From positions 1 through 64,000 of the forward strand of contig ONEW01000009.1 of NCBI GenBank assembly GCA_900316935.1: a stretch of DNA of 64,000 bases. The letters run 5' to 3'. The notes beneath the pieces are model-generated. The model ran no database searches. It was not told where the DNA came from and was given only the letters and a program-made list of their open reading frames with translations. This DNA is from an uncultured Selenomonadales bacterium (GTDB lineage: Bacteria; Bacillota; Negativicutes; Acidaminococcales; Acidaminococcaceae). Position 1 is the stretch's first letter, and every line of letters begins with the position of its first letter. Below, piece after piece: positions 14,730-29,148 of this stretch. The translations under genes and the position numbers were made by a program.

Positions 14730-16400
14730 ATGCTTACGGACATTGAAATCGCGCAGCAGTGTAAAATGCTTCCCATCACGGACATCGCGGCCAAACTGGG
14801 CATTGCGCCGGATGACCTGGAAATGTACGGTCAGTACAAGGCCAAATTGTCCTACGGCCTGCTTGACAAAATCAGCAAGAACAAACCGGGCAAACTGGTC
14901 CTGGTGACGGCCATTACGCCGACGCCGGCCGGCGAAGGCAAGTCCACGACGACCGTCGGCCTGGCCCAGGGCCTCGCCAAGATCGGCAAGAAGGCCATCG
15001 TCGCCCTGCGCGAACCTTCCCTGGGACCCTGCTTCGGCGTCAAAGGCGGCGCGGCCGGCGGCGGATACTCCCAGGTCGTCCCCATGGAAGACATCAACCT
15101 GCACTTTACGGGCGATTTCCATGCCATCACGTCAGCCCACATGCTGCTGGCAGCCATGACCGACAACTCCATCCAGCAGGGCAATCCCCTTAACATCGAT
15201 CCGCGCCGCGTCGTCTGGAAACGCGTCGTCGATATGAACGACCGCCAGCTGCGGCATATCATTTCCGGTCTCGGCGGCAAAGCCTCGGGCGTGCCCCGCG
15301 AAGACGGCTTCGATATCACCGTCGCCTCCGAAGTCATGGCCATCCTCTGCCTGTGCACGAGCCTCCATGACCTTAAGGAACGGCTGAAACGCATCGTCGT
15401 GGCCTACACCTGTGACGGCAGCCCCGTCACGGCCGACGACGTCCACGCCGCAGGCGCCATGGCGGCCCTGCTGAAGGACGCCATCAAGCCGAACCTGGTC
15501 CAGACGCTGGAACACGTCCCGGCCCTGGTCCACGGCGGCCCCTTCGCCAACATCGCCCACGGCTGCAACAGCGTCATGGCGACGCAGGCAGCCCTCCGTC
15601 TGGCCGATTACACCATCACGGAGGCCGGCTTCGGTGCCGATCTGGGCGCGGAAAAATTCTTCGACATCAAGAGCCGCTTTGCCGGCCTCCATCCGGATGC
15701 CTGCGTCATCGTGGCTACGGTCCGTGCCCTCAAGATGCACGGCGGCGTGCCGAAAGACCGGCTGAAGGAACCTAATGTGGCCGCCGTCCAGGCAGGCCTG
15801 TGCAACCTGGGCAGACACATTGGGAACGTGTTCAAATTCGGGGTGCCGGTCGTCGTGGCCATCAACATCTTCGCACAGGACACAGAGGAGGAACTGCAGG
15901 CCGTCTATGAGTACTGCCGGGGCATGGGCGTCGAAGTCGCCCTCAGCGACGTGTTCGCCAAAGGCGGCGAAGGCGGCGTGGCACTGGCTAAGGAGGTCGT
16001 CAAACTGGCTGAGAGTGGCACGAGCCATTTCACGCCGGTTTATCCGCTCGACCTGCCGTTGAAGCAGAAGGTGGAAACCATCGCCAAGGAGATCTACGGT
16101 GCCGGCAAGGTCCAGTTCGAGAAGAAGGCGGAGCAGATGCTCGACCAGTACGAAAAGGAAGGCTACGGCAACATGCCCGTCTGCATGGCCAAGACCCAGA
16201 ACTCCCTGTCGGATGATCCGAACCTGAAAGGGGCCCCCGCGGACTTCACGCTCCACGTGAGCGATGCCAAAGTCAGCGCCGGCGCAGGCTTCGTAGTCGT
16301 CTACACAGGCAGCATCCTGACGATGCCCGGCCTTCCCGGACATCCGGCCGCTGAAAACATCGACGTGACGGACGACGGAAAGATCACCGGCCTGTTCTGA
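14730..16400 (+). CDS. fhs: Formate--tetrahydrofolate ligase
   Basis: Makes 10-formyltetrahydrofolate from formate, THF and ATP, feeding one-carbon units to purines or an acetogenic/fermentative folate pathway. The 556-residue protein has the family length, the P-loop-like [19 protein letters not shown] (63-81) and [20 protein letters not shown] further on. GGAGGG precedes the ATG. The gene ends 12 bases before a terminator that separates it from folD. Upstream is a promoter with an overlapping palindrome. Confidence 0.97.
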
Positions 16401-16412
16401 GAATTGAAAATC

Positions 16413-16448
16413 ACGGGTGAGGCCGGCTCCAGTGCTTCACCCGTTTTT
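16413..16448 (+). terminator. Intergenic terminator/attenuator between fhs and folD
   Basis: An 8-bp stem (ACGGGTGA at 16413-16420 with TCACCCGT at 16437-16444), a GC-rich loop and a U-run at 16444-16448. It ends about 18 bases before the folD start codon and would lower read-through from fhs. Confidence 0.8.
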
Positions 16449-16466
16449 CGTCAAGGAGGTATTTCA

Positions 16467-17297
16467 TTGGAACCCATCTGCATGGCAGGGCAACCGGTCG
16501 CCGAGGCGTACCGGGCACAGATTGCCGCCAAAGTCGCGGCCGCAAAAGGACGGGGCGTCACGGTGACGCTGGCCATCGTCACGGCAGGCCGCGACCCGGC
16601 CTCGTTCGTCTACCGCAGGCGGCTCCTGAAGATGACCGAAAGCATCGGCGCCGCCCACCGCTGCGTCGAACTGCCTGAAACCGCATCCACGGAAGAGGTC
16701 CTGGCCGCCATCGGCAACCTGAATGACGACGCGTCGGTCACGGGCATCCTGCCCATGATGCCCATGCCGCGGCACATTGACAGCCAGGCCGTAGGCGCGG
16801 CCCTGGCCCCCGCCAAGGACATGGACTGCCTGAACCCCGTCAACATGGGCGCCCTGCTCTTGGGGGACGGCCGCCGGGCCGCCTGTACGCCCCGGGCCTG
16901 CCTTGCCGTCCTGCATCACTACGGCATCGCCCTGGACGGGAAGAAAGCTGTCGTCCTGGGTCGCAGCAACGTCGTCGGCAAACCGGCCGCCCTGCTCCTG
17001 CTCCAGGAAAACTGCACCGTCACCATCTGCCATTCCCATACGGAAAACCTGCCTGCCATCCTGCGGGACGCCGACATCGTCGTCGCTGCCATAGGCAGGG
17101 CCTGCTTCGTGAAAGCAGACATGGTCAAGCCCGGCGCCGTCCTCGTCGACGTAGGCATCAACGTGACGGAACAAGGCATCTGCGGCGACATCGACCCTGC
17201 CGCCTGCGCCGGATCCCTGGCTTACACGCCGGTGCCCGGCGGCATCGGCACGGTCAGCAACATGATGATGATGGACGCCCTCACGCGGGACCTGTGA
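16467..17297 (+). CDS. folD: FolD-family methylenetetrahydrofolate dehydrogenase with altered cyclohydrolase residues
   Basis: FolD normally oxidises methylene-THF and hydrolyses methenyl-THF. I chose the TTG at 16467 because AAGGAGG lies 7 bases before it and an upstream start would run through the fhs terminator; this gives 276 residues. The dinucleotide site GRSNVVGKPAALLLL (166-180) and the C-terminal TPVPGGIGTVSNMM are normal. The catalytic YxxxK motif reads YRRRL, with Tyr49 kept and Leu53 in place of lysine. The usual VQLPLP reads PMMPMP, with Met97 in place of glutamine. Asp120 is kept. In studied FolD proteins that lysine and glutamine are central to catalysis, so cyclohydrolase activity may be lost. 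Confidence 0.9.
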   Translation: MEPICMAGQPVAEAYRAQIAAKVAAAKGRGVTVTLAIVTAGRDPASFVYRRRLLKMTESIGAAHRCVELPETASTEEVLAAIGNLNDDASVTGILPMMPMPRHIDSQAVGAALAPAKDMDCLNPVNMGALLLGDGRRAACTPRACLAVLHHYGIALDGKKAVVLGRSNVVGKPAALLLLQENCTVTICHSHTENLPAILRDADIVVAAIGRACFVKADMVKPGAVLVDVGINVTEQGICGDIDPAACAGSLAYTPVPGGIGTVSNMMMMDALTRDL

Positions 17298-26150: not shown

Positions 26151-27646
26151 GCATTAGTACACATGCTCCCGTGTTCATCGTGCTGCTGCCCCTGACAGCG
26201 TCCCTGCTGTGCCTGTGCTTCAGCCGTCTGAACCGCAAGCTGGGGGCCTGGATTGTGCAGGCCGCCATCGCCGGTTCTTTCGTGGCGGCACTCCTTACGA
26301 TGTACCAGGTACTCAACAGCGGCAGCCACAATCTCCACTACTGGATGGGCAACTGGGAGCCCCCTATCGGCATTGAGTTCGCCGTGGATCCCCTCAATGC
26401 GGCCGTGCTTTGCATGATCACCTTCCTTTCGCTGGTCATCAGCTTCTACGGCAAGCCGTTCCTCGTCAGCGAGGACTGGCTGCACTACGGCGGTTACTAC
26501 ACGTTGTACGGCCTTCTGACCGTCGGCCTTTGCGGCATGGTGGTCACGGGCGACGTGTTCAACATGTACGTCTATCTCGAAATCATGTCCCTGTCCGGCT
26601 ACGGCCTCATCGCCCTGGGCGGGAAGAAGTCCATGATTGCGGCGTTCCGCTATCTGCTTGTCGGAACCATTGCCGCGTCGTTATATCTGATCGGCATCGG
26701 GTATGTCTACAGCATGACCGGGTCCCTGAACATGGCGGACATCAGCGTCCGCATCCAGCCTTTCGTGCACACGCCGCTGTTTGCATTTGCCGTGGCGTGC
26801 TTCCTGATCGCCTTCGGCATCAAGATGGCCCTGTTCCCGCTGCACGGCTGGCAGCCTGACGCCTACACCTACGCCCATCCCGGCGCGGCAGGCCTCATTT
26901 CGGGCTGCATGTCCAAAGTACCGGCTTACGCCATGCTGCGTTTCTTCTTCTACATCTTCGGTGTCACCAGTCCTGTCATGTCGGCCCTGCTGGACGTGCT
27001 CGGCATCATGGGCATCGGCGGGATCCTCATCGGGTCCGTCATGGCCCTGGCCCAGTACGACTTCCGCCGCATGCTGGCGTATTCTTCCGTGGCCCAGCTC
27101 GGCTATATCGCCGTCGGCATGGCCATGGGCAACATGTACGGCTTCATCGGTGCCGTACTGCACCTCATCAACCACGCCTTCATGAAGAGCTGCCTGTTCC
27201 TTGTGGTAGGTGGCATCTCCTACCGGTTCGGCGAAGTCAACCTGTACCGTCTGGGCGGTCTGAACAAGAAGATGACCGTTTCCTCCGTGGCGCTGTGCTT
27301 TGCCGTCCTGTCCATGGTCGGCATCCCGCCCACCTGCGGATTCTTCTCCAAGTGGTACCTGATGCTGGGCGCCTACGAAGGCAAAGAATACATCTTTATC
27401 GCCATCCTCGTCATCAGTTCGTTGCTGAACGCAATCTACTACTTCCGCATCGTGGAGCAGATGTTCGTCCAGCGCGAAGCGTCCTTGACGGAACTCCACA
27501 AACCGGCCACGAAGTTCGGCCTGCCCATGAGCATGGTACTGCCGATCGGCATTACGGGCCTGGGCATCCTGGTGCTCGGCATCTACAGCTACGACATCGT
27601 GGTAGGAGTGCTTAAACTAGGGTTACCGGAGGTGTTCCTGAGATGA
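26147..27646 (+). CDS. mrpD: MrpD-like antiporter subunit, copy 1
   Basis: A 499-residue proton-pumping-type subunit of the MrpD/NuoN/NuoL family with about 14 helices. The key charged residues are present: the glutamate of helix 5 (YVYLEIMSLSGYG), the lysine before PLH (FGIKMALFPLHGWQPDAY) and HAFMKSCLFLVVGG further on. It is the most canonical MrpD of the three copies. It overlaps mrpC and the next copy by four bases each. Confidence 0.92.
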   Translation: MSISTHAPVFIVLLPLTASLLCLCFSRLNRKLGAWIVQAAIAGSFVAALLTMYQVLNSGSHNLHYWMGNWEPPIGIEFAVDPLNAAVLCMITFLSLVISFYGKPFLVSEDWLHYGGYYTLYGLLTVGLCGMVVTGDVFNMYVYLEIMSLSGYGLIALGGKKSMIAAFRYLLVGTIAASLYLIGIGYVYSMTGSLNMADISVRIQPFVHTPLFAFAVACFLIAFGIKMALFPLHGWQPDAYTYAHPGAAGLISGCMSKVPAYAMLRFFFYIFGVTSPVMSALLDVLGIMGIGGILIGSVMALAQYDFRRMLAYSSVAQLGYIAVGMAMGNMYGFIGAVLHLINHAFMKSCLFLVVGGISYRFGEVNLYRLGGLNKKMTVSSVALCFAVLSMVGIPPTCGFFSKWYLMLGAYEGKEYIFIAILVISSLLNAIYYFRIVEQMFVQREASLTELHKPATKFGLPMSMVLPIGITGLGILVLGIYSYDIVVGVLKLGLPEVFLR

Positions 27647-29148
27647 TAGTGAATGATCCGAGACCTTTCCTTGCTGTCGGAACCGCGTTCCTGGCAGCGC
27701 TGCTCGTGTCGTGCAGCCGCAAGCATCCCAATGTCCGCGAAACGTGGAGCACCGTTGCCTCGTTCCTCATGTTCGGCCTCATCATCAGCATGGTCGGCGG
27801 CGTGTTGAACGGCAATGTGTACCAGTGGACCTTGTTCCAGCTGACCGACACGGTGGGATTCACCCTGCGTACCGATACGGCGGGCATGATCTTCGCCTGC
27901 CTGTCGTCCCTGCTGTGGATTCCCATCAACTTCTATTCCATCGGCTATATGCGGAATAACCACGAAACGGAACAGACCGGGTACTTTGCGTCCTTCGCCG
28001 TCTGCCTGGGCGCGACGGTGGGTGTTTCCCTCGCCAGCAACCTGCTGACCTTCTTCGTGTTCTACGAAATCCTGACCATCTTCTCGTATCCGCTTGTGCT
28101 GCACGAACGGGACGAGGAAGCCCTGGACGCCAGCCGCAAATACCTGGCCTACACACTGGTTTCCGGCCAGCTCTTCCTGGCAGGCACCGTTGGGGTGTAC
28201 TGCATCAGCGGCACCATGGACTTCCGGGCCGGCGGGTTCCTCGATTCCGGCATGGCCCCCATCTGGGTGCTGCAGCTGCTCTTCCTCCTCATGATCATGG
28301 CCGGCAGCGTCAAGGCGGCCGTGATGCCGCTGCATGGCTGGCTGCCCGCCGCCATGGTGGCGCCGACCCCTGTCAGCGCCCTGCTGCACGCCGTAGCCGT
28401 CGTCAAGACCGGTGCTTTCGCCGTCCTCCGCGTCATCTGCTTCGTCTTCGGACCGAAGCTGCTGAGTGAACTGGGAACGGCCGATGTCCTGGCCTGGCTC
28501 GCCGCGGCAACCATCCTCATGAGTTCCTTCATCGCCCTCAAGCAGGACAACCTGAAACGCCGTCTTGCTTTCTCGACCATCGGCCAGTTGAGTTACATCG
28601 TCCTCGGTGCTTCGCTCCTGACCCCGCTGGCCATCAAAGGCGCCTACCTCCATCTGGTGGCCCACGCCGTGATGAAGATCACCCTCTTTATGTGCGCCGG
28701 TGTCATCATCGTCCGGACGCACCTGCATGAAATCAGCGAGATGGACGGCATCGGCCGCCGCATGCCCGTGACGATGGGCTGTTTCGCCATCGCCTCCCTG
28801 GGCATCGCCGGGACGCCGTTCCTGATCGGTTTCATCAGCAAATGGAACCTGGCCATGGGGGCCATCCAGGCCGGCAAACCGCTGTTTGTCGCCGTCTGGA
28901 TCGCGTCGGCCCTGCTGGCCATCGGGTATCTGATGCCGGTCGTCCGCATGGCCTTCTTCAAGCCTGAACCGAAGGAAGACCCGCGGCACTACGGTTCCAT
29001 CAGCTACTCCATGCTGATCCCCATCTGCTTCACTGCGGTCCTGGCCCTTGTACTGGGCTGCGACCCCGAAATCTTCCCGCCGGACTTCTATAAGCTGGCG
29101 ACCGTGACGGCCGACGCCGTTTGCGCCGGATGGGGAGGTGGCTGGTGA
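27643..29148 (+). CDS. MrpD/NuoL-like antiporter subunit, copy 2
   Basis: A 501-residue subunit of the same family, with the helix-5 glutamate (FFVFYEILTIFSYP), the lysine before PLH (SVKAAVMPLHGWLPAAM) and HAVMKITLFMCAG. It could take the place of the MrpA N-terminal domain missing from this operon, but sequence alone does not decide this. Four-base overlap upstream; its stop overlaps the next small gene by one base. Confidence 0.9.
   Translation: MIVNDPRPFLAVGTAFLAALLVSCSRKHPNVRETWSTVASFLMFGLIISMVGGVLNGNVYQWTLFQLTDTVGFTLRTDTAGMIFACLSSLLWIPINFYSIGYMRNNHETEQTGYFASFAVCLGATVGVSLASNLLTFFVFYEILTIFSYPLVLHERDEEALDASRKYLAYTLVSGQLFLAGTVGVYCISGTMDFRAGGFLDSGMAPIWVLQLLFLLMIMAGSVKAAVMPLHGWLPAAMVAPTPVSALLHAVAVVKTGAFAVLRVICFVFGPKLLSELGTADVLAWLAAATILMSSFIALKQDNLKRRLAFSTIGQLSYIVLGASLLTPLAIKGAYLHLVAHAVMKITLFMCAGVIIVRTHLHEISEMDGIGRRMPVTMGCFAIASLGIAGTPFLIGFISKWNLAMGAIQAGKPLFVAVWIASALLAIGYLMPVVRMAFFKPEPKEDPRHYGSISYSMLIPICFTAVLALVLGCDPEIFPPDFYKLATVTADAVCAGWGGGW

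Follow-up and report, generated by a model that had tools for sequence, protein, structure and literature searches.

The window, a stretch of 64,000 nucleotides (positions 1 to 64,000 of contig ONEW01000009.1, assembly GCA_900316935.1) from an uncultured Selenomonadales bacterium of the family Acidaminococcaceae, carries a folD gene directly behind the gene for formate-tetrahydrofolate ligase. The neighbourhood is laid out as follows.

14730..16400, forward strand: fhs, formate-tetrahydrofolate (THF) ligase, directly upstream of folD (NCBIfam NF010030, 926 bits; PF01268)
16413-16448: terminator-like hairpin ACGGGTGA...TCACCCGTTTTT between fhs and folD (fold z-score -3.7)
16453..16459, forward strand: AAGGAGG ribosome-binding site 5' of the folD TTG start (sequence reading)
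16467..17297, forward strand: folD of the lysine-less type, encoding 276 aa from a TTG start; product predicted to be a monofunctional 5,10-methylene-THF dehydrogenase

We placed the start of folD at TTG 16467; the ORF list prolongs the frame to an upstream TTG at 16404. The product is a full-length FolD in which a Pfam domain search matched both domains end to end (PF00763, 97.9 bits; PF02882, 177 bits). It shares about 31–40% identity with solved FolDs, including 36% with E. coli FolD (1b0a, 5o22), and its AlphaFold model (mean pLDDT 95.7) reaches TM scores of 0.84–0.96 to these structures. The order fhs-folD is the same in most relatives of the family. The hairpin between the two genes is retained in RUG113 (L006), while G207 (L102) has a different hairpin in the same gap; a consensus scan with a short-loop rule did not contain the window hairpin. 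Expression of folD may be partly uncoupled from that of fhs.

Active-site residues of the window FolD

Residue equivalences were set by alignment to E. coli FolD (Y50, K54, Q98, and D121), which places the corresponding codons as listed here.

16611..16613, forward strand: Tyr49 codon TAC (E. coli Tyr50), kept; invariant in all 132 aligned Negativicutes FolDs
16623..16625, forward strand: Leu53 codon CTC, replacing catalytic Lys54 (codon reading, E. coli alignment)
16629..16631, forward strand: Lys55 codon (E. coli Lys56), common to both FolD types (class alignment)
16755..16757, forward strand: Met97 codon ATG, replacing Gln98 (codon reading, E. coli alignment)
16824..16826, forward strand: Asp120 codon GAC (E. 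coli Asp121), kept (codon reading, E. coli alignment)

The pair that marks a bifunctional FolD, Lys54 and Gln98, is missing, with Leu53 and Met97 in its place, while the dehydrogenase site (Tyr50, Asp121, and the NAD(P) motif) is complete. The original prediction had described a FolD at 16467-17297 that lost the YxxxK lysine and the VQLPLP glutamine and kept Tyr49, Asp120, and the NAD(P) site; the ORF, the domains, the CTC and ATG codons, the E. coli alignment, and the retained cofactor motifs GRSNVVGKP (GRSN) and CHS bear out each of these points. By analogy with human MTHFD1, these cofactor motifs suggest that the window FolD probably uses NADP. The change at Gln98 is one of several linked changes: the strand GILVQLPLP reads GILPMMPMP in the window FolD, and the motif following the aspartate is DCLN instead of DGFH.

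Comparison of the window folD with five relatives gave dN/dS values of 0.16–0.21, i.e., purifying selection, which indicates that the gene is maintained. Because the nearest relatives, with identities of 89%, 78%, and about 70%, share the same Leu/Met pair and dN/dS is this low, the substitutions are not a sequencing slip, and we ruled out both a pseudogene and a sequencing error.

Distribution of the lysine-less FolD and its association with FchA

The genome that contains the window (1.95 Mb in 46 contigs, 92.5% complete) encodes exactly one FolD; a weak PF02882 match on another contig (C10, 20.6 bits) was rejected as a second copy, having no catalytic-domain match. It also encodes one MetF-family reductase and one FchA-family protein, a stand-alone domain of 218 aa whose gene occupies 27510-28166 on the minus strand of contig C34, convergent to glyA and unlinked to folD, which lies on a different contig. 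The original prediction had called for a search for fchA or a second folD, and this is what that search returned. Among solved structures, the C34 protein matches the methenyl-THF cyclohydrolase 7vg4 (2.4e-35) better than it does cyclodeaminases of the FTCD kind (5e-19 and 1e-18). Because its 167 bits lie below the equivalog cut-off of 275 of NCBIfam NF045657, its sole NCBIfam match, the sequence makes it at best a divergent FchA member. A formiminotransferase (PF02971) was not found in this genome, an absence that is not certain because the assembly is 92.5% complete; the FchA is therefore unlikely to serve histidine breakdown, and we rejected histidine catabolism as the explanation for its presence.

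We then sampled FolDs from 123 further Negativicutes genomes and one named relative. The lysine is missing from 88 of 132 sequences, where position 54 is occupied by Leu (54 sequences), Met (21), Ala (6), Ile (3), Val (3), or Gln (1), and in 87 of these 88 the glutamine is lost as well, being replaced by Met, Leu, Phe, or Thr. Among the 44 lysine-type FolDs, position 98 is Gln in 40, Glu in three, and masked in one. On the gene tree, 86 of 87 lysine-less sequences group together in a single clade, separate from the lysine type, so a loss local to one species was rejected. What had been presented as the peculiarity of one enzyme, with an alignment of relatives proposed as the check, proves to extend across the whole family and a large part of the class, and by alignment and tree the lysine-less FolD is an old, widespread type in this group of gut and rumen bacteria. 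Other residues that differ between the two FolD classes are V38I, F123L, H124N, and G145A. Two genomes of the window's family carry a second lysine-less FolD (L088:9935-10840 and L126:2470-3420) with Ala or Ile at position 54, Phe at 98, and an RPFP motif; they are located a few kb from a cluster of formiminotransferase, fhs, and fchA.

FchA accompanies this FolD type with few exceptions. Within the Negativicutes, it was found in 79 of 82 genomes whose only FolDs are lysine-less; the three genomes without it are 72%, 81%, and 92% complete, and incompleteness alone would be expected to cause 4.1 misses. Strong FchA matches occur in 11 of 39 lysine-only genomes, five of which have a formiminotransferase and three of which have a FolD with Lys54 and Glu98 (the Lys/Glu type). 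A second sample, taken across the wider phylum, gave the same pattern, and for class and phylum combined FchA is present in 110 of 113 genomes lacking an intact Lys/Gln FolD, compared with 17 of 69 genomes that have only intact FolD, 13 of these 17 also encoding a formiminotransferase. Furthermore, fchA adjoins folD in the lysine-less lineages f26, f16, and f4 and in many phylum-level genomes, as well as in f30 and other Lys/Glu lineages. No Lys/Gln locus among those examined, some of them with only 1–1.5 kb of flank, showed fchA beside folD. As the FolD gene tree holds only a few change events, these genome counts are not independent trials: a phylogeny-corrected, pair-based test of FolD type against FchA yielded one independent contrast and no p-value, and we place no weight on the Fisher p of 2e-15 for the class, which counts related genomes as if they were independent. 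The strength of the coupling is the neighbourhood link together with the near absence of exceptions.

Two further FolD variants were observed. The Lys/Glu type, in which Lys54 is kept and Gln98 is replaced by Glu, occurs in L037, L040, and L030 (f30) and also in L212, L217, L216, L209, L174, L200, and others; FchA is encoded in every one of the 14 genomes that carry no other FolD type, often immediately next to folD, and the Lys/Glu pair may represent another way in which the cyclohydrolase was weakened or lost. Paralogs in which Lys54 is replaced by Gln and Asp121 by Glu (L166, L167, L139, L141, L168, L149, L147, and L052) often sit next to a normal folD in tandem arrangement and have no link to FchA; their change at Asp121 suggests altered folate binding.

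Proposed role of the window FolD and alternative explanations

In the cyclohydrolase step, Lys54 acts as general acid/base and Gln98 positions the lysine (PMC3338484). In E. coli FolD, the K54N substitution renders cyclohydrolase activity undetectable and leaves about 19% of the dehydrogenase activity, while Q98H leaves about 1% of the cyclohydrolase activity (PMC5688156); for human MTHFD2, the catalytic role of the lysine was left unsettled (PMC9173628). The window FolD is very probably a monofunctional 5,10-methylene-THF dehydrogenase, with an FchA encoded elsewhere in the genome carrying out the cyclohydrolase step. This is the arrangement that had originally been proposed, and gene content and lineage-wide co-occurrence both favor it. 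Tyr49, Asp120, and the Rossmann-type cofactor site would hold substrate and cofactor for the hydride transfer that interconverts methylene- and methenyl-THF, and with leucine and methionine in place of the acid/base lysine and the positioning glutamine, no FolD-catalyzed hydrolysis to 10-formyl-THF would take place. Methenyl-THF would be hydrolyzed by the separate FchA-type cyclohydrolase, and Fhs, encoded just upstream of folD, would make 10-formyl-THF from formate. Given that dehydrogenase activity is also about five-fold lower in E. coli K54N, other residues of the window FolD would have to compensate.

It is very unlikely that the enzyme is still bifunctional, with another residue or a bound water having taken over the role of Lys54. 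The obvious candidate, Lys55, lies two residues downstream of Leu53 and had been named beforehand as the lysine that might occupy the catalytic position. It aligns with E. coli Lys56, however, and a K or R occupies this position in 42 of the 44 lysine-type FolDs and in 87 of the 88 lysine-less ones; being conserved in both types, Lys55 is an old family residue rather than a replacement for Lys54, and we rejected it as a stand-in. Neither has a newly gained lysine come near fixation among the 88 lysine-less sequences; the only candidate is column 22, which is Lys in about half of them. Spontaneous hydrolysis of methenyl-THF also occurs (PMC5688156), but retained bifunctionality would sit poorly with the joint loss of Gln98 and the lysine and with an FchA in nearly every lysine-less genome. 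The same spontaneous reaction enters a different account, in which the FchA-family protein is a formimino-THF cyclodeaminase of histidine breakdown, unrelated to FolD, and spontaneous hydrolysis and Fhs suffice. The PF04961 family does include cyclodeaminases, and Fhs alone could supply 10-formyl-THF. Against this, 64 lysine-less-only genomes have FchA without a formiminotransferase, and both the failure to find PF02971 in the 92.5% complete genome and the much better match of the C34 protein to 7vg4 than to FTCD make such a role highly improbable.

Least probable of all is that the protein has left one-carbon metabolism for a new substrate or role, an option that the original prediction had held out and that the analysis does not support. 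The four further class differences noted above could be read in this way, but Tyr50, Asp121, and Thr142 are conserved along with the NAD(P) motifs, folD adjoins fhs in most family members, and the genome has no other methylene-THF dehydrogenase of the FolD family. A dehydrogenase-only FolD partnered by FchA remains the best explanation.

Implications and relation to known systems

Every one of the NCBIfam matches listed for the window FolD is labelled bifunctional, and a study of Sporomusa likewise labels the folD beside fchA bifunctional (PMC12003927). Inspection of two sequence positions would set right the annotation and metabolic models of much of the Negativicutes and many other Bacillota. 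FolD type predicts which bacteria need FchA and, as binding of the FolD inhibitor carolacton needs Lys54 (PMC5688156), which should be carolacton-insensitive. A broader proposal, to which we give somewhat less than even credence, is that the state of Lys54 and Gln98 acts throughout Bacillota as a general switch that can be read from the sequence: apart from the Asp121-to-Glu paralogs, any FolD without the intact pair, the Lys/Glu type included, would have given up efficient cyclohydrolase activity, depend on FchA, be misannotated as bifunctional, and be insensitive to carolacton where the lysine is gone. A literature search, with most subscription journals beyond its reach, found nothing on a lineage-wide loss in Negativicutes or on the Lys/Glu type.

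FchA and FolD are also separate genes in the methyl-branch clusters fhs-fchA-folD-metVF of the acetogens Acetobacterium woodii (PMC10472528), Eubacterium limosum (PMC5651825), and Sporomusa (PMC12003927), although fchA adjoins folD there, whereas the window folD follows fhs and fchA lies elsewhere. The fchA-folD loci in f26 and the wider phylum carry mostly a lysine-less FolD of the Ala/Phe type. According to the titles cited in PMC11064299, Mtd1 of Saccharomyces cerevisiae (PDB 1edz) is a monofunctional NAD-dependent methylene-THF dehydrogenase; it resembles the proposed enzyme as a FolD-fold dehydrogenase without cyclohydrolase, but is remote in sequence (E 5e-8), eukaryotic, and NAD-dependent. 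The bifunctional FolD of E. coli shares the fold and the dehydrogenase residues of the window FolD and differs in having Lys54, Gln98, and both activities.

The FolD of Clostridium perfringens has reportedly been shown to be monofunctional. As cited in PMC7219735, a separate FchA in this organism was documented by Aluri et al. 2016 (doi 10.1099/mic.0.000209). C. perfringens, although from another class of bacteria than the window organism, is likewise one of the anaerobic Bacillota and has a separate FolD dehydrogenase and FchA cyclohydrolase along with Fhs. It is well supported that a dehydrogenase-only FolD with FchA represents a largely understood division of labour, of a kind already reported for C. 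perfringens.
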